This document shows positions 6,907-34,512 of a DNA stretch of 64,000 nucleotides, piece by piece. Source of the stretch: Pseudomonadota bacterium. Lineage in GTDB: Bacteria > Pseudomonadota > Alphaproteobacteria > Micavibrionales > CSBR16-224. The stretch lies in NCBI GenBank assembly GCA_013285465.1, contig CP053449.1:1884735-1948734 (forward strand), read 5' to 3'. The notes beneath the pieces are model-generated. The model did not search any database. It had not been told where the DNA came from and worked only from the letters and a program-made list of their open reading frames with translations. The translations under genes and the position numbers were made by a program. Position 1 is the first letter of the stretch. Each line of letters begins with the position of its first letter.

Positions 6907-8064
6907 GTGGACATTACGGAACTTTTGGCTTTTACGCTTAAAAACGGCGCATCTGACCTTCATTTAAGCGGTACCAACTCACCCATCGTCCGCGTTGACG
7001 GGGAGCTGAGACGAATCAAGGCCGACCCGCTGACACATGACATGATTCAGGCCATGCTCTATTCCATCATGACGGAGGAGCAGCGCTCGGAATACGAACG
7101 CGATCTGGAAATCGATTTCGCCATTTCCTTTGGCGAAAGCGCCCGTTTCCGTGTCAACGCCTTTACCAACAGACACGGCTCTGCTGCCGTTTTTCGTATC
7201 ATTCCGCATGAAATGCCGACGCTGGAGGAATTGAACCTGCCGCCGATTATCCGCAGTCTTTCCCGCCTTGAAAAAGGCATCGTGCTGGTCACGGGGCCGA
7301 CAGGTAGCGGTAAATCAACAACACTGGCCGCCATGATTAACTATATCAACCGCCGTATGTCCAAACATATTCTGACGGTTGAGGATCCGGTGGAGTTTTT
7401 TCACTCCTCCATCAAATGTCTGGTGAACCACCGTGAGGTCGGCACCGATACCAAATCCTTTGCCCGGGCGCTGAAAAGTGCCCTGCGTGAGGATCCCGAC
7501 GTTATTCTGGTTGGTGAGATGCGTGACCATGAGACCATCGCCCTTGCCCTGACCGCAGCTGAAACGGGTCACCTTGTTTTCGGAACCCTGCACTCCAACT
7601 CTTGTGCCAAAACCATTGACCGTATCATCGACGTGTTTCCCGCAGCGGAAAAAGCGATGGTACGCGCGATGCTGGCCAGTTCCATTCAAGGCGTTGTGGC
7701 ACAGACACTACTGCGAAAAGCCGGCGGCGGCCGTTGTGCCGCACAGGAAATTATGGTGGGGACAAACGCCGTCCGTAACCTGATCCGCGAAAACCAGTTG
7801 GCGCAGATTTATTCCATGATTCAAACCGGTGCCCGTTACGGCATGCAGACCATGGAAGATGCTGTGACAGATCTTCTTGAAGGCGGTATGATCACGCCGG
7901 AAACGGCCAAGGAAGCTCTGGCGGAAGCCGGCGGCGAAGTCAGCGACTTTGACGATGAGGATGAAGCACCGCTGCCGGGCGGCGGCGCACCTGCCGGGCA
8001 AGCCCCTGCTCCCGGAGCACCTCCCGCAGGTGCGGAAGGTGATGAGGGAGGATATTCGTTTTGA
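6907..8064 (+). CDS. pilT: Type IV pilus retraction ATPase PilT
   Basis: This hexameric cytoplasmic ATPase of the GspE/PilT family powers pilus disassembly. From GTG 6907 the N-terminus reads MDITELLAFTLKNGASDLHL, the canonical PilT start, and GGGGGG lies about 10 bases upstream; ATG 6880 would add nine atypical residues. Visible motifs are Walker A GPTGSGKST (about residue 130), the Asp box, Walker B LVGEMRD (about 200) and the His box with GHLVFGTLHSNS. The C-terminal tail of about 40 residues is acidic, then Gly/Pro/Ala-rich, which is longer than usual. It ends with a 4-base overlap (TTGA) with the next ATPase gene, indicating coupled translation. Confidence 0.93.
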   Translation: MDITELLAFTLKNGASDLHLSGTNSPIVRVDGELRRIKADPLTHDMIQAMLYSIMTEEQRSEYERDLEIDFAISFGESARFRVNAFTNRHGSAAVFRIIPHEMPTLEELNLPPIIRSLSRLEKGIVLVTGPTGSGKSTTLAAMINYINRRMSKHILTVEDPVEFFHSSIKCLVNHREVGTDTKSFARALKSALREDPDVILVGEMRDHETIALALTAAETGHLVFGTLHSNSCAKTIDRIIDVFPAAEKAMVRAMLASSIQGVVAQTLLRKAGGGRCAAQEIMVGTNAVRNLIRENQLAQIYSMIQTGARYGMQTMEDAVTDLLEGGMITPETAKEALAEAGGEVSDFDDEDEAPLPGGGAPAGQAPAPGAPPAGAEGDEGGYSF

Positions 8065-9203
8065 GCGGCATTGTTATTTACAGCTATCTCGAAGAAATGG
8101 TCGAAAACAAGGCCAGCGATCTGTATATCACGGTCGGACTGCCGCCGACGATGCGTATCGAAAACGAGCTAAAAGCGCTTGATTCAAACCCGCTGGCTCC
8201 CGATACCGTGCAGGATATGCTGTCCAAGGTTTTAACCAGCCGCCAGCGCCGCGAATATGAAAGCACGATGGAGCTGAACCTTGCCCTTGATATGGGCGAT
8301 AGCGGCCGTTTCCGTGTCAATGTCCTGCGCCAGAAACAGTTCCCTGCTATGGTGATCCGGCGTATCACATCACAGATCCCCAGTTTCGAAGAACTGCATC
8401 TGCCTGATATTTTTCGGACGCTCGCGCTGAAAAAACGCGGATTGATCCTGATTTCCGGTGTTACCTCATCGGGTAAGTCGACCTCGCTTGCCTCGATGGT
8501 TGATTACCGCAATCAGAATATGGGCGGCCATATCATCACCATTGAAGATCCGATTGAATATGCGCATGACCATAAAAAAAGCATTATCACCCAGCGCGAA
8601 GTCGGGATTGACACCCAATCCTATCAGGTTGCGCTGAAAAACGCACTGCGGCAAAAACCCGATGCTATTCTGGTCGGCGAGATCCGTGATGCGGAGGTTA
8701 TGGAGATGGCTTTGAACGCTGCGGAAACCGGGCATCTGTGCCTGTCCACCATTCACACTAATAACGCCATTCAGGCCATTGAACGCATGATCAGCCTTTT
8801 CCCCGAAGAGAGGCATAATCAGGTGCGGATCGCTCTCTCCATGAATTTGAGCGCAATTGTCGGCCAGCGTCTTGTGAACAACAAATACGGCGGTCTGACC
8901 CCCGCCCTTGAGATTTTGCTGAATGAAGCCCTGATTAAGGATCATATTCTCAAAGGCGAAACCAGTAAAATCCGCGAAGTGATGGCCAATAACACCACAT
9001 CGGGCATGATGCTGTTCGATGACTGCCTGTTCAAACTGTTCCGCGAAGATTTCATCGACGAGAATACGGCTATTGCGGAATGCGACATCCCCAGCGACAT
9101 GAAGATGCGTATCCAGCAATACCGCATGTCAGGTGTCGTCAATGAAGGCGGAGAAAAATCAGGAGCCTTTGATCAGGTTGACACCTCCAAACTCTCTCTT
9201 TAA
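8061..9203 (+). CDS. Second PilT-family ATPase, PilU-like
   Basis: The 380-residue paralog of the preceding gene is again a GspE/PilT ATPase. It has Walker A GVTSSGKST (about 132), an Asp box ITIEDPIEY, Walker B LVGEIRD and the His-box segment GHLCLSTIHTNN. The GVTSSGKST variant is more like PilU than PilT, and PilU genes usually sit directly after pilT. PilU works with PilT in retraction under load. The start is TTG, which overlaps the pilT stop; GGGAGG lies 8 bases upstream. No extension ATPase (PilB) is encoded in the window. Confidence 0.9.
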   Translation: MSGIVIYSYLEEMVENKASDLYITVGLPPTMRIENELKALDSNPLAPDTVQDMLSKVLTSRQRREYESTMELNLALDMGDSGRFRVNVLRQKQFPAMVIRRITSQIPSFEELHLPDIFRTLALKKRGLILISGVTSSGKSTSLASMVDYRNQNMGGHIITIEDPIEYAHDHKKSIITQREVGIDTQSYQVALKNALRQKPDAILVGEIRDAEVMEMALNAAETGHLCLSTIHTNNAIQAIERMISLFPEERHNQVRIALSMNLSAIVGQRLVNNKYGGLTPALEILLNEALIKDHILKGETSKIREVMANNTTSGMMLFDDCLFKLFREDFIDENTAIAECDIPSDMKMRIQQYRMSGVVNEGGEKSGAFDQVDTSKLSL

Positions 9204-9342
9204 ATGCCGCTTTTACAGACAGTGCGGTTCCGCGACAAAATATACCGCCGGGAAAAGTGTTTTTCCCCTTCTCATGCCAGTTAAAAACCGCTAGAATTTT
9301 GCAAAGCGAGTTTATTTGCAAAAGAACAGGTTAATACACGCC

Positions 9343-11145
9343 ATGAAAAACGACCGCCTTTCCATTTTATCCGTTATTGCACTCTGTTGCGCCCTGATGT
9401 TCCTGACCAGTTGCGAAATGGCCAAGAACAGTATGCAGTTTGACCGCAGCGCCAACAAAGAGCAGCAGGATTACCGCCGCGCCCTTGCACCGCGCCCCCT
9501 GCCGAAAGAAGAAATGGCCGAGGATAATCTGCCGCTTGAATCCTATATCGCCACAGATGCTGTCGAAAAAACCGTTTTTCCGCTGGTTTCCGTTTCCGTC
9601 AACCAGACGGTTTCACTCCGCGATCTGCTGTTTGAACTCTCCGAACAGGCCGGTGTCGATCTGGAAATGGATCCGCAGATTCGCGGCACGTTGATTTTCA
9701 CCGTACGCAACCGTCCTTTTGATGAAGTGATCGAACGTATTACGGCGATGGCCGGTCTGCGCTATACGCTGGATCATAACCTGTTGCGCGTCGAGCTTGA
9801 CCGCCCTTACGTCAAGAATTATGAGCTGAATTATCTGAATGTCATCCGCAAGGTCAAAAGCAGTATTGACCTTGATGCCTCCGTTATTTCCGAGGATGAG
9901 GCAACTGTCGGTTCATCTTCCAGTATCGAGAGTGATCTGGAAACAGATTTCTGGACCAGTCTGGATGCAAATTTATCGCAAATCCTGACCTCCTCGGAGA
10001 ACCCGATCACGCTGGCAACACTGGCGGATCCTGCCGCCCAGCCCCGCGCCACCCCGCAGGCCGAAAGTGTCAGCATCACAGATATGTCACAATTGCCGCC
10101 GCCCATTCTTGATGTCCGTGCGCCGCCGACTGCAAGTGACCCGGCTTTACCGAACCCGGCATCTTCTTATTCCGTGAACCGTCAGGCCGGCATTATCACC
10201 GTCTTTACGACACAACGTCAGCACAAGCTGGTTGAAAAATATCTGGTGGATTTGAAGAAAAGCGCCACAACGCAAGTCTTGATCGAGGCGAAAATTCTGG
10301 AAGTCACACTGAATGACGAATTCAACACCGGTATTAACTGGGACGCCTTTTTCCGCCATGACCTCACAGGCCTGATTGATTTCGGTGCCAATTTCCCGCG
10401 CCCGGGTCTGTCGTCACAGCCTGCCGATGCCTTTAATATCGGTGTCAGACTGGGAAGCGATATTGCCGTTCTCGTTGATGCCATGAACCAGTTCGGTACG
10501 GTTCGCGCGCTTTCCAGCCCGCGCCTGACGGTCTTAAACAATCAAAGCGCCATTTTGAACGTCATTGAAAATGAAGTCTTCTTCGAGTTTGATTTTACGC
10601 GTGAAACCGACCCGAATACCGGTGCCGTGACAACAGATGTCAGCACGGAAATCCGCGCCGTTCCGATCGGTATCATGATGAATGTCAATCCGTCCGTTAA
10701 TTTCAAAACCGGCGAGATTACGATGATGCTGCGTCCAACGGCTGTCGCAAAATCCGGCCCCGGCGTTGTTGACCCCAGTATCCGTATTGCGCTGGCCGGT
10801 GCAGATGCCGCGACAATTCAAGCATTGGGCAATATTCCGGACAATTTGATTCCCGAATTATCAGTGCAGGAAGTCGATTCCGTTATCAAACTGCAATCCG
10901 GCGAAGTTGTCGTAATGGGCGGTTTGATGACCGATAAAAATGCCGTCACACGTACCGGCGTCCCGGTTCTCGGAAATATGCCGGTTGTCGGAAAGCTGTT
11001 TAGTTCCCAATCCGATCAGATCGAGAAAAACGAGCTGGTCATCTTTATCCGTGCCACCATTTTACCGGGCAGCGACAGCATCCACGACTATGATAAAGAG
11101 CTGTATAAAGAGTTCGGTCAGGACAGACGCCCTCTCAAAATGTAA
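9343..11145 (+). CDS. Type IV pilus secretin, lipoprotein (MshL/PilQ-like)
   Basis: From ATG 9343 the protein has 600 residues and a lipoprotein signal ending in the lipobox LTSC (Cys24); a TTG at 9316 would only lengthen the signal. An N-terminal secretin/TonB short domain (about 75-160: LRDLLFELSEQAGVDLEMD) is followed by a variable Pro/Ser linker (about 170-270). The secretin core comes next and ends with the conserved VVMGGLMTD, then GVPVLGNMPVVGKLF. Secretins form the outer-membrane pore for the pilus. A lipoprotein secretin of this length, without AMIN domains, is like MshL of MSHA pili. A 140-base gap upstream may hold a promoter, but I see no clear one. Confidence 0.9.
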   Translation: MKNDRLSILSVIALCCALMFLTSCEMAKNSMQFDRSANKEQQDYRRALAPRPLPKEEMAEDNLPLESYIATDAVEKTVFPLVSVSVNQTVSLRDLLFELSEQAGVDLEMDPQIRGTLIFTVRNRPFDEVIERITAMAGLRYTLDHNLLRVELDRPYVKNYELNYLNVIRKVKSSIDLDASVISEDEATVGSSSSIESDLETDFWTSLDANLSQILTSSENPITLATLADPAAQPRATPQAESVSITDMSQLPPPILDVRAPPTASDPALPNPASSYSVNRQAGIITVFTTQRQHKLVEKYLVDLKKSATTQVLIEAKILEVTLNDEFNTGINWDAFFRHDLTGLIDFGANFPRPGLSSQPADAFNIGVRLGSDIAVLVDAMNQFGTVRALSSPRLTVLNNQSAILNVIENEVFFEFDFTRETDPNTGAVTTDVSTEIRAVPIGIMMNVNPSVNFKTGEITMMLRPTAVAKSGPGVVDPSIRIALAGADAATIQALGNIPDNLIPELSVQEVDSVIKLQSGEVVVMGGLMTDKNAVTRTGVPVLGNMPVVGKLFSSQSDQIEKNELVIFIRATILPGSDSIHDYDKELYKEFGQDRRPLKM

Positions 11146-30317: not shown

Positions 30318-31985
30318 ATGACATCAAAAAAATCGACTCTTTTCTCCGCGGGAATTTTTTCCAATATCCGCGGAGATATTTATGGCGGCATTACGGTCGC
30401 CGTTGTTGCTTTACCATTGGCGCTCGCTTTTGGAACGGCTTCGGGGCTGGGGCCTGTCTCCGGACTTTACAGCGCCATTGCGCTCGGCTTTTTTGCCGCG
30501 CTGTTCGGCGGCACGAAATGCCAGATATCCGGCCCCACAGGCCCGATTACCGTCATTATGGCCGCTATTGTTGTACAATATCAGCATGATCCGGCCATGG
30601 TTTTCACCATCGTCATGCTGGCGGGGCTGTTTCAAATTCTGTTCGGTGCCATCAAGATCGGGCGTTATATCACCTATATCCCCTACCCCGTTATCAGCGG
30701 ATTTATGAGCGGTATCGGATTGATTATCATTATCCTGCAGCTCGGCGTCCTTGCCGGATATAAAGCCCCCGATCAGGTGATGGCCGTCTTGCCGAAACTG
30801 CCGGAATTCTGGGCGCATCCATATTGGCCTGCCGTCAGCGTCGGCCTCACGGCGCTTGGCATCATGATTTTTATGCCGAAATCATGGCGCAACATTCTGC
30901 CGCCGCCGCTGGCCGCACTGGCAGCCGCCACATTGTTATCGCTTTTTGTGATACAGGGAGCGCCTGTACTTGGCGAAGTCCCGAAAGGCCTGCCCGATAT
31001 CCATCTGCCGAAATTTACGCTGGATGCCCTGCCGAACATGCTGGGTTCCGCCCTGATTATCGCTTTGCTGGGAACCATCGACAGTATTCTGACCTCATTG
31101 GTTGCCGATACTTTTACCCATACCCAGCATAATTCCGACCGCGAACTGATCGGACAGGGAATCGGCAATATGGCCGCAGGACTGCTCGGCGGCATTGCCG
31201 GTTCGGGTGCGACCATGCGGACCGTCACCAATATCCGTGCGGGCGGACGCACCCCCTTATCAGGCATGTTCCATGCGCTGCTGCTGCTGGCGTTTCTGGT
31301 CGGGCTGGGTTTTGTTATTGCCGATATTCCGCGCGCCGCGCTGGCCGGTGTGCTGATTAAAATCGGCTGGGACATTATTGACTGGCGTTTCCTGCGGCAA
31401 TTGAAAATGGCGGGTATGCGCGGCGTGGAATATCACCCTGTTGTCATCATGCTGGTCGTTGCCGGACTGACCGTTTTTGTCGATCTGATTATGGCGGTTT
31501 TTCTCGGTATTCTCATGCAAAGCCTGATTACCGCCGACAGCCTTGCCAAACACCAGATCGAGGAGGTCGAGTTTGCCTCGAAGGGAACGCTGAAGGGCAA
31601 AAAGAAAAAACTGCGCACGAAAGAAAAGAAACTGCTGCAACAGGCCGGTGAACGCCTGCTGCTGCTGCGCTTTGCGGGACCGCTTAGCTTCGGCACGGCA
31701 CGCGACCTTGCCGCGCGGCTGCATCTGGTCAGCCGTTTTGACAGTATCGTCATTGACTTCAGCGACTGCAAAATGATGGATGTCTCCATCATGATGACGA
31801 TTTCCGACATGATTACGGAGCTGACGCAGGATTGCAAAACCCTGTTTTTATGCGGCACGGAGAATGAAATTTACGCCCGTTTGCAGAAATACGGCATTTT
31901 GTCACCCGTGCCGGAAAACCAGATTTTCACGACGCGGCTCGAGGCTTTGCAGGCCGCTGTTGCGCAACTGGAAAACAATATTTGA
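30318..31985 (+). CDS. SulP family anion transporter with C-terminal STAS domain
   Basis: The 555-residue transporter has a hydrophobic core of 10-14 segments including the SulP signatures GLGPVSGLYSAIA and KCQISGPTGPITVIMAAIV. A cytoplasmic basic linker (GTLKGKKKKLRTKEKKLLQ) is followed by a STAS domain at about 430-550 (RFDSIVIDFSDCKMMDVSIM). SulP proteins carry sulfate, bicarbonate or other anions; substrate cannot be fixed from sequence, but the family type often acts in bicarbonate or sulfate uptake. The STAS domain regulates transport. A promoter for the next unit overlaps its stop codon. Confidence 0.92.
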   Translation: MTSKKSTLFSAGIFSNIRGDIYGGITVAVVALPLALAFGTASGLGPVSGLYSAIALGFFAALFGGTKCQISGPTGPITVIMAAIVVQYQHDPAMVFTIVMLAGLFQILFGAIKIGRYITYIPYPVISGFMSGIGLIIIILQLGVLAGYKAPDQVMAVLPKLPEFWAHPYWPAVSVGLTALGIMIFMPKSWRNILPPPLAALAAATLLSLFVIQGAPVLGEVPKGLPDIHLPKFTLDALPNMLGSALIIALLGTIDSILTSLVADTFTHTQHNSDRELIGQGIGNMAAGLLGGIAGSGATMRTVTNIRAGGRTPLSGMFHALLLLAFLVGLGFVIADIPRAALAGVLIKIGWDIIDWRFLRQLKMAGMRGVEYHPVVIMLVVAGLTVFVDLIMAVFLGILMQSLITADSLAKHQIEEVEFASKGTLKGKKKKLRTKEKKLLQQAGERLLLLRFAGPLSFGTARDLAARLHLVSRFDSIVIDFSDCKMMDVSIMMTISDMITELTQDCKTLFLCGTENEIYARLQKYGILSPVPENQIFTTRLEALQAAVAQLENNI

Positions 31986-32010
31986 CAAAACGGCACAGAA
32001 TCACATATAA
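31982..32010 (+). promoter_or_regulatory. Promoter of the GNAT leader transcript
   Basis: TTGACA (31982-31987), a 17-base spacer and ATATAA (32005-32010), or 18 and TATAAA. It overlaps the SulP stop codon. The predicted start is near 32017, immediately at the first ATG of the upstream ORF. An AT-rich dyad CACATA...TATGTG (32002-32022) covers the -10 region. Confidence 0.6.
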
Positions 32011-32017
32011 ATATATT

Positions 32018-32119
32018 ATGTGTAAAGAAATGAACGCAGAATCCTGTCTTGATATCACCGAAAGCGCCCTGCTTTCCGGTTCTGTTTTCTTTTGCCCGCC
32101 GCGACGACGTACTCGCTGA
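32018..32119 (+). CDS. Leader peptide ORF before the GNAT gene
   Basis: This is a 33-codon frame, MCKEMNAESCLDITESALLS, continuing to FFCPPRRRTR and stop. It begins within one base of the predicted transcription start. The Cys-Pro-Pro-Arg-Arg-Arg end before a stem-loop suggests a ribosome-arrest peptide. A second ATG at 32030 is in frame. Expression is not shown; the DNA may be conserved as RNA structure instead. Confidence 0.45.
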   Translation: MCKEMNAESCLDITESALLSGSVFFCPPRRRTR

Positions 32120-32256
32120 CCGCCCCATCAGGGCACAGGTCTTGCAAGAGACACGTTGCACATCACACAACTAAATCTTCAAAGTCTTAAATCCTGATAC
32201 TAGGCGGTTCTAACAAGAACAGTTTTCCCAATTTTTTTGTATCGGATATTAAGACA
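32018..32256 (+). promoter_or_regulatory. Structured mRNA leader, candidate speF-type riboswitch
   Basis: Between promoter and GNAT gene lie 240 bases with strong secondary structure. Hairpin 1: ACCGAAAGC (32057-32065) with GCTTT-C-CGGT (32071-32080), loop GCCCT. Hairpin 2: GACCGCCC (32118-32125) with GGGC-ACA-GGTC (32131-32141), starting at the leader-peptide stop. GCCCTG at 32066-32071 is complementary to CAGGGC at 32129-32134, allowing a loop contact or a switch. The speF element regulates polyamine genes in Alphaproteobacteria and resembles this in size and context; the match is from memory and is not verified. Confidence 0.5.
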
Positions 32257-32994
32257 ATGACAAAGAGTAACAACAAGAATGACATTTTAAATATGGGCAC
32301 GCTTTGCAAAAGCGGGCAGAGCTATACCGTCAAGCTGCTGGACGCGGATTGCCTTGATGAAATTCTGGGCTTGCAGCAGAAAATCATCGACTCCCTCCCT
32401 GACGACCAGAAATCCTTCATCCTTCCCAAATCCAAAACCTTTTTCGAAAACCATTTTAAACGCGGCGCCAATACCATGATCGGCATTTATTGCGAGGGCG
32501 AGCTGATTGCGCAATCCATCGTGCTGAACCCGAATGCCGCGCATCCCGAAACAGGTATGGTCGATATGGAGCTTGTGGATACGCCCGAAACGCTGTCTAT
32601 TATCGAGGGCGTGCTGGTTGACCCCGCCTATCGGGGCAACAGGCTGATGGAGGAAATGGTCGGGCATTGGATTGACTATGCCGAACAGATCGGCCGGAAA
32701 CATGTGATTGCCGAGATCGCCATTGATAATCCCTATAGCTGGGGCGTGTTTCTGGATAAAGGCTTAACGCTGCATTCCACCGGCACCGACCCCGATGACG
32801 GCACAGAGCTTTACAACGCCCATGAAAGCATCGCCAATATCCGGTCAAAACAGCTTTCGGGCGTGTTTAACCATTATGCGGAAAAGAAACATTGTGATGC
32901 GCATGATCTCGACACGCAGAAAGAACTTCTGAATCAGGGTTTCAAAGGCGTAGCCTATGACCGGAAAAGCAAAAAGCTGACCATGGCAAAATAG
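32257..32994 (+). CDS. GNAT family N-acetyltransferase
   Basis: The 245-residue protein has a GNAT core. The acetyl-CoA binding strand and loop are seen in IIEGVLVDPAYRGNRLMEEM (motif A, RGNRLM as the pyrophosphate loop), and further on GRKHVIAEIAIDNPYSWGVF. It transfers an acetyl group to an amine; the target is not known. In Alphaproteobacteria, GNAT genes of this kind may accompany ornithine decarboxylase, and the upstream leader hints at a polyamine-linked role, but no decarboxylase is present in this window. A long leader precedes the ATG; no strong ribosome site is seen. Confidence 0.85.
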   Translation: MTKSNNKNDILNMGTLCKSGQSYTVKLLDADCLDEILGLQQKIIDSLPDDQKSFILPKSKTFFENHFKRGANTMIGIYCEGELIAQSIVLNPNAAHPETGMVDMELVDTPETLSIIEGVLVDPAYRGNRLMEEMVGHWIDYAEQIGRKHVIAEIAIDNPYSWGVFLDKGLTLHSTGTDPDDGTELYNAHESIANIRSKQLSGVFNHYAEKKHCDAHDLDTQKELLNQGFKGVAYDRKSKKLTMAK

Positions 32995-33594: not shown

Positions 33595-34512
33595 TTATAA
33601 ATTTTGAGAGGGTGGAGGTGGTGATTTCGGTTGCGGATTATTTTCCAGCGCGGCGGCGGGCTTCTCATTATCATTCGCGGTTTTTTCGGCCTGTTTTTCG
33701 GCGGCGATTTTGGCGATTTCCTTGCGCGTTTCGGTCAGCGTGGCGCGCGCGGTGGATAGCGGATCACTTTGACCGGGCAGGTGCAGATAATTCACATCCG
33801 ACAAACCGCCAATTCTTTCGACCCAGTCATTTTCCAGCGCGCCTGCGGATAAGCCATGTTCCTTGCTTTTCGCGCAGAGATTTTCGATGATTTTTTCATG
33901 CAGGTTTTCCGTGTCATGGTCGTAATGCGCCACGCGGGAGGGTTTGGTAAACCATGCATCAAAAGCCGCACGTTTGGCGCGGCCATCGTAAATTGATTGC
34001 GGATCGGCTTCATAAGCGGCTTCATAGGCACGGCACATCTCCTCGTAACCGACCGCCGCCGTTTTTTCGTAGGGGCCGGCATCGCCCGCCAGCTTTAACT
34101 TGAACGTCACATCAATCGCCGCCGCTTGCGCATCGGCCTCCTGCACAGCGCGGAACAGCTGATGATCCTCCAGCGACAGCAGCATATCGGGATTGCCCAG
34201 ATCATTCATATGATGGCGCATATGCTGCGCCTCATGCACCAGCGCCTGTGCAATATTGTCGTCATGCAGGGATTCATTCAGGATAATCTTGGTGCCGACA
34301 TAGATATATTTGCCGTTTTCAATACGGTCGATGGTCAGGGATGAGGCGGCCTCGAATAAAGCATCTTTTTCAAAGCAGATCTCGATCTTGTGATCATTCA
34401 GGAAGGTGACCATATCATAGCCTTCGGACACAGCGGCCAGACGTGCGAGAATATCGTCGCAACGGGCGGCATGCTGTTTTTTCAGCCGTTTCTCGCGTTT
34501 TTTCGCGGTCAT
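33595..34512 (-). CDS. Putative metallopeptidase-like protein (DUF6782-like, HExxH)
   Basis: The 305-residue protein has the sequence ALVHEAQHMRHHMNDLG near residue 90, a zinc-binding HExxH (HEAQH) of the gluzincin/metzincin kind. A further EAD segment follows (VQEADAQAAAIDV) that could supply the third ligand. N-terminal residues are strongly basic (TAKKREKRLKKQHAARCDD) and the C-terminal 50 residues are disordered with prolines. No signal peptide is present, so it should be cytoplasmic. I recall DUF6782 as a family with this motif but cannot verify membership. AGGGA precedes the ATG by about 10 bases. Confidence 0.72.
   Translation of the reverse strand: MTAKKREKRLKKQHAARCDDILARLAAVSEGYDMVTFLNDHKIEICFEKDALFEAASSLTIDRIENGKYIYVGTKIILNESLHDDNIAQALVHEAQHMRHHMNDLGNPDMLLSLEDHQLFRAVQEADAQAAAIDVTFKLKLAGDAGPYEKTAAVGYEEMCRAYEAAYEADPQSIYDGRAKRAAFDAWFTKPSRVAHYDHDTENLHEKIIENLCAKSKEHGLSAGALENDWVERIGGLSDVNYLHLPGQSDPLSTARATLTETRKEIAKIAAEKQAEKTANDNEKPAAALENNPQPKSPPPPSQNL

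Follow-up and report, generated by a model that had tools for sequence, protein, structure and literature searches.

A GNAT-family acetyltransferase gene from an alphaproteobacterium of the order Micavibrionales is preceded by an element that we read, with a probability of about 0.8, as a ribosome-mediated arginine attenuator that is ON in arginine hunger. The element lies in a stretch of 64,000 nucleotides, hereafter the window, belonging to a genome of 2.67 Mb. The element itself, its codon bias, its place before arginine genes and its competing helices come from comparison and computation. A promoter-proximal short open reading frame (ORF) carries a run of codons for a single amino acid; in relatives, the regulated genes belong to the metabolism of that same amino acid, by way of arg operons; and helices that exclude each other according to the position of the ribosome are obtained by computation. 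That a family of such arginine-codon attenuators is real appears very probable. The evidence points to an arginine attenuator that extends across an order including predatory bacteria, is probably leaderless and uses codons nearly all of one tRNA. It also makes an arginine regulon readable from sequence, and names the GNAT gene and a P-loop gene as arginine-linked.

Promoter and leader ORF

The strong promoter and the 33-codon ORF ending in CPPRRRTR ahead of a GNAT gene, both described in an earlier sequence-only reading of the window, are present (Table 1). A generic promoter scan had passed over this promoter only because it demanded that the −10 box end in T. With the ATG of the ORF beginning 6 nt past the −10 box, transcription probably starts at the A of this codon (32018). 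Judged by this sequence arrangement, the ORF is probably leaderless, with transcription starting at or next to its ATG. Upstream, the −35 box overlaps the stop codon of a SulP/STAS-type transporter gene (30318-31985).

Table 1. Features of the window leader and gene arrangements found behind the same leader in Micavibrionales relatives.
Feature	Position or locus	Strand	Remarks
Promoter	31982-32011	+	−35 TTGACA 31982-31987, 18-nt spacer, −10 TATAAA 32006-32011; 11 of 12 consensus positions match
Leader ORF	32018-32119	+	33 codons and TGA; peptide MCKEMNAESCLDITESALLSGSVFFCPPRRRTR, ending CPPRRRTR before the stop
Regulatory codons	32102-32116	+	CGA CGA CGT ACT CGC, immediately 5' of the stop codon
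Local hairpin H1	32118-32141	+	GACCGCCC 32118-32125 with GGGC-ACA-GGTC 32131-32141; in the minimum-energy fold
Long-range helix H2	32118-32209	+	32118-32143 with 32182-32209; 20 pairs in three blocks
Helix H3	32184-32255	+	32184-32200 with 32239-32255; covers the stretch directly before the GNAT ATG
Regulated gene, GNAT-family acetyltransferase	32257-32994	+	245 aa; PF00583, E 7.6e-7
Leader + GNAT-argC-argB-argD-argF	L206, L207		
Leader + GNAT-argD-argF	L204, L205		
Leader + GNAT-argF-argG-argH	L154		
Leader + argC-argB-argD-argF	L213, L222, L243, others		
Leader + argF-argG	L159		
Leader + argG	L165		
Leader + argF	L225, L188		
Leader + P-loop gene before argC	L228, L230, L235, L240, others		

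The leader before arginine genes

Micavibrionales relatives that have kept arginine synthesis carry the same leader in front of arginine genes with no homology to the GNAT gene (Table 1). The peptides of these arg leaders mostly end in RRRxR at the stop codon (RRRPR, RRRTR, RRRSR), as does that of the window (RRRTR), and the 15 bases 5' of the stop codon of the window ORF (CGACGACGTACTCGC) recur exactly in the argC leader L243. Outside Micavibrionales, about 40 alphaproteobacterial argC upstream regions with a placeable start yielded no credible leader. Apparent upstream ORFs before argD (L160) and argG (L173) lie inside upstream genes and were set aside as chance.

Arginine is written with a restricted set of codons in the arg-operon leaders: CGA accounts for 50%, CGC for 38% and CGT for 12%, and CGG, AGA and AGG do not occur. 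In the long ORFs of the window, CGA makes up 4.6% of the arginine codons. Under standard decoding, the four arginine codons of the window leader (CGA, CGA, CGT and CGC) are all read by the inosine tRNA-Arg.

This codon choice also bears on the first of three other explanations, in which the stall is not about arginine: CGA-CGN would be slow or inhibitory to decode and the leader would sense general translation stress, such as an antibiotic or tRNA damage. The first codon is indeed CGA in 18 of the 23 arg-operon leaders, and a CGA bias could serve slow decoding instead of arginine sensing. Moreover, leader ORFs that sense ribosome-targeting drugs occur before other genes, as in E. coli topAI-yjhQ (PMC12121999). 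However, some arg leaders have CGC or CGT in the first positions, and the same leaders precede arginine biosynthesis operons, whereas a plain stall would not be expected to follow one pathway. We consider the general-stress explanation unlikely, though it is the best placed of the three.

The leader among GNAT relatives

Relatives of the GNAT were found in 56 of 142 Micavibrionales genomes and in 8 of 385 genomes sampled from the class, the genome of the window being included in both counts. In 66 non-redundant upstream regions of these genes, CGACG occurs in 41 and its reverse complement in 2. In 35 regions it is in frame in a short ORF that begins with ATG; the runner-up among in-frame words reaches 19. 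Many of the 31 regions devoid of such an ORF are inside operons. Likewise, the GNAT genes that lack CGACG are partly operon-internal, downstream of an amidohydrolase or ABC transporter gene. Most GNAT genes that apparently start a transcription unit have a short ORF upstream in which Arg-Arg is written CGA-CGN and the remainder is free to vary. Four loci devoid of CGACG (L093, L095, L088 and L090) share another motif upstream of the GNAT gene, ATAAAAGnnATGCn...AACGCATA...GTGGCG, and perhaps have a different type of leader.

The geometry seen in the window recurs in the family. A promoter score of at least 9 was obtained for 21 of 42 leaders vs. 1.6% of the other ATGs in the same sequences, and in 18 of these 21 leaders the distance from the −10 box to the ATG is 6-7 nt. 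Therefore, the ORF is probably leaderless in the family as well. Over 1.17 Mb of fetched sequence, in-frame CGACG was counted 30 times in leaderless short ORFs with a promoter score of at least 9; in the same count, eight of nine control words gave 2-8 occurrences and AAAAA gave 18. By our own reading, 29 of the 30 CGACG ORFs precede GNAT or arg genes, a proportion that is biased because the fetched loci were mostly chosen around such genes. A pattern search of the window's own genome returned no further convincing leader, with a pattern (exact TTGAC, ORF bodies of at most 73 nt) that would miss the window's own leader.

Conservation of this kind could also arise from a protein- or sRNA-binding RNA motif, made up of CGACG and a hairpin, that falls in a reading frame by chance. 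Bases are conserved around CGACG...GACCGCC and a hairpin signal is present. Nevertheless, the frame is conserved from a promoter-proximal ATG with the geometry of a leaderless start, diverged leaders retain RRRxR endings, and CGG, AGA and AGG are avoided, so that such a motif is improbable as the explanation.

RNA structures

Of 200 dinucleotide shuffles of the 244-nt window leader, 199 fold less well than the leader itself (z −3.15). Hairpin H1, already proposed from the sequence, belongs to the minimum-energy fold of the leader. H2 has an energy of −23.9 kcal/mol, a value equally low in 2 of 1000 shuffles. The free fold gives H3 an expected 15.75 pairs and leaves positions 32239-32259 with a mean unpaired probability of 0.16. 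H2 excludes both H1 and H3, and shares the 5' arm of H3. A two-state RNA, as the sequence-only reading had postulated, is thus recovered in the computed H2 and H3. The pairing on which that reading had relied, GCCCTG (32066-32071) with CAGGGC (32129-32134), is a real complementarity, but H2 is the better supported alternative.

The position of the ribosome was then introduced in the computation, with assumed footprint lengths. With RNA up to 32215 and the A site at CGA 32102, 19.1 of the 20 H2 pairs form; with the same RNA and the ribosome at the stop codon, only 0.6 of 20 do. In the full RNA, a ribosome placed at the stop codon leaves H3 completely paired. Because the full-length RNA is most stable with H3, H2 has to arise while transcription is still under way. 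The energies of the two states hardly differ when the ribosome is at the first CGA (−57.2 vs. −56.9 kcal/mol), and forcing H2 raises the openness of the GNAT start region from 0.16 to just 0.37.

Structure is also visible across the family. In 60-nt windows over 42 leaders, the mean fold z is −1.25 at the end of CGACGN and −1.49 at 6 nt before it, a modest, position-specific signal that fades to 0 by +20 past CGACGN. For long-range helices that join the region of the stop codon to a segment about 40-90 nt downstream, the mean z is −2.06 in arg leaders and −1.23 in GNAT leaders; such a helix lies at or below the 5% shuffle level in 13 of 22 arg leaders and 10 of 35 GNAT leaders. The paired arms change between leaders while pairing seems to be kept, for example TTAAGCG/CGCTTAA, TTCAGAGCG/CGTTCTGAA and TGACCGCC/GGCGGTT.

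Proposed mechanism

Transcription would start at or beside the ATG of the leader ORF, and the ribosome would read the ORF as far as CGA CGA CGT ACT CGC. If charged tRNA-Arg is scarce, the ribosome would wait at the first CGA, about 15 nt 5' of the stop codon. Its front edge would then end just short of the stop codon, leaving 32118-32143 free to pair with 32182-32209 in H2. By taking the 5' arm of H3, H2 would block H3, the GNAT start would stay open and the GNAT would be translated. If arginine is sufficient, the ribosome would reach the stop codon and cover 32118-32129; H2 could not form, H3 would do so, and the GNAT start would be shut.

In this scheme, we infer the start-site use, the stalling, the ON/OFF direction and a control that is translational and not transcriptional in this species. 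The ON direction in hunger is likely, because biosynthetic genes carry the same leader. The output may be either an intrinsic terminator or a masked start. A terminator-like hairpin with a U-run is found between the ORF and the gene in 40% of the leaders vs. 7% of shuffles, and several relatives have an intrinsic terminator at the place equivalent to the masking of the GNAT start in the window. This enrichment means that some relatives probably control transcription. A scan of the window leader gave no clear intrinsic terminator, and there H3 lies over the GNAT start; on balance, we favor start-site masking as the output in the window.

The acetyltransferase gene and its genome

The structural model of the GNAT has a pLDDT of 87.9, and its nearest PDB folds are assorted GNATs with 7-18% identity. 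These are generic matches and point to no particular substrate. Searches of the genome of the window for ArgC, ArgF and ArgG found all three absent. Therefore, the standard route to arginine is closed to this bacterium, its GNAT stands outside any working arginine pathway, and a role as N-acetylglutamate synthase of its own genome is ruled out. Micavibrio aeruginosavorus ARL-13 has also been reported to lack arginine synthesis (PMC3189940). For relatives, the position of the gene in GNAT-argC-B-D-F (genomes G440 and G475) makes an N-acetylglutamate synthase role possible.

A tree of 67 GNATs places the window protein in a clade of 25 rows, none of which is in an arg operon; all arg-operon members are in the sister clade, and the leader occurs in both. 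The window GNAT is thus an orphan acetyltransferase under a probable arginine switch. A frameshift fusion of leader and GNAT was ruled out, the frames not being consistently open. A gene for a DUF6782 putative metallopeptidase (33595-34512, −; E 9e-26) is situated downstream of the GNAT gene and runs in the opposite direction.

The question is then raised of why an arginine auxotroph retains an arginine-hunger switch on an acetyltransferase. A tentative answer, to which we give clearly less than even odds, is that in these bacteria, which belong to a predatory order and have lost arginine synthesis, the switch of the lost pathway was retained or relocated and now drives an acetyltransferase that is an orphan. 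If so, arginine hunger, for instance through lack of prey, would turn on a non-biosynthetic response.

Relation to known leaders

Classical amino-acid leader-peptide attenuators are of the trpL, hisL and ilvBN type, and trpL of Sinorhizobium is leaderless. The window leader resembles them in its promoter-proximal ORF, its run of regulatory codons and its mutually exclusive helices, and part of its family has terminators. In contrast, the amino acid is here arginine, the window leader seems to end in a masked start region, and what it precedes is an orphan acetyltransferase gene of an arginine auxotroph. To our knowledge, the arg operons of proteobacteria have no known arginine-specific leader-peptide attenuator, and a search of the open-access literature revealed none. 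In Pseudomonas aeruginosa, carA, a gene of the arginine/pyrimidine pathway, is likewise preceded by a leader peptide; a paper that cites this peptide describes arginine control there as transcriptional and attenuation as possibly serving pyrimidines (PMC4997734).

The nearest parallel in logic is the Salmonella speF leader orf34, in which two consecutive arginine codons mediate the response to arginine and a CGACGA substitute still works; as proposed for the window, a ribosome that pauses at arginine codons of a short leader ORF and one that gets as far as its stop codon produce opposite structures (PMC6386406). The window ORF has consecutive arginine codons too, which would mediate a response to arginine. 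However, the window peptide lacks the DUF2618 core HIRRTxHIMM, its arginine codons are directly before the stop, the ORF is probably leaderless, and both gene and taxon differ, no ornithine decarboxylase being involved. The alphaproteobacterial speF element of Rfam (RF00518) is likewise a 5' leader with a conserved start-proximal sequence and extended pairing, but it was found before ornithine decarboxylases (PMC1273637), and its covariance model does not match the window.

From its layout, the sequence-only reading had proposed a candidate speF-type element or a polyamine-sensing arrest peptide. The layout and the arginine-codon logic of the Salmonella leader are indeed similar, but this explanation is now very improbable. 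RF00518 has no match in the window, none even at E ≤ 10 over 31900-32400, and a single chance-level match elsewhere in the genome (9.2 bits vs. a gathering cut-off of 37). Six leader peptides including that of the window matched no Pfam family at E ≤ 10, and thus not DUF2618 (PF10940), short peptides limiting the sensitivity of this search. The gene downstream of the window leader encodes the GNAT and not an ornithine decarboxylase; two decarboxylase-family genes are located elsewhere in the genome. Polyamine sensing is further disfavored by the presence of the same leader before arginine biosynthesis genes in relatives. As for the Arg/Pro end, the importance of its arginine part is better supported than the sequence-only reading had claimed. 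The arginine codons (CGA-CGN) are conserved; elsewhere the peptide is free to change, and even between near relatives three of four codon differences alter the residue. Conservation of the arginine codons only, in an otherwise variable peptide, favors sensing at the codon level, through charged tRNA-Arg, over an arrest peptide.

Other genes near arg operons

In leader-argC-argB-argD-argF operons, the opening gene, at the position that the GNAT gene occupies in other species, encodes a member of a P-loop family of about 350 aa (TGTSMDSGKTT) that matches nothing in Pfam or NCBIfam (L230:526-1575, +; L237:4017-5084, −; L241, L228, L240 and L235). This P-loop protein is a candidate for an unrecognized arginine-pathway protein. 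In several arg operons, a protein of about 360 aa is encoded between argD and argF (L157:2659-3743, −; L156, L158, L231 and L232). At L155, an M20 amidohydrolase gene (7988-9719, −) and a GNAT gene (7104-7976, +) adjoin argB and argC-D-F-G-H. M20 and GNAT genes are neighbors again in L154, L204 and L206, and these pairs suggest an acetylation/deacetylation couple.
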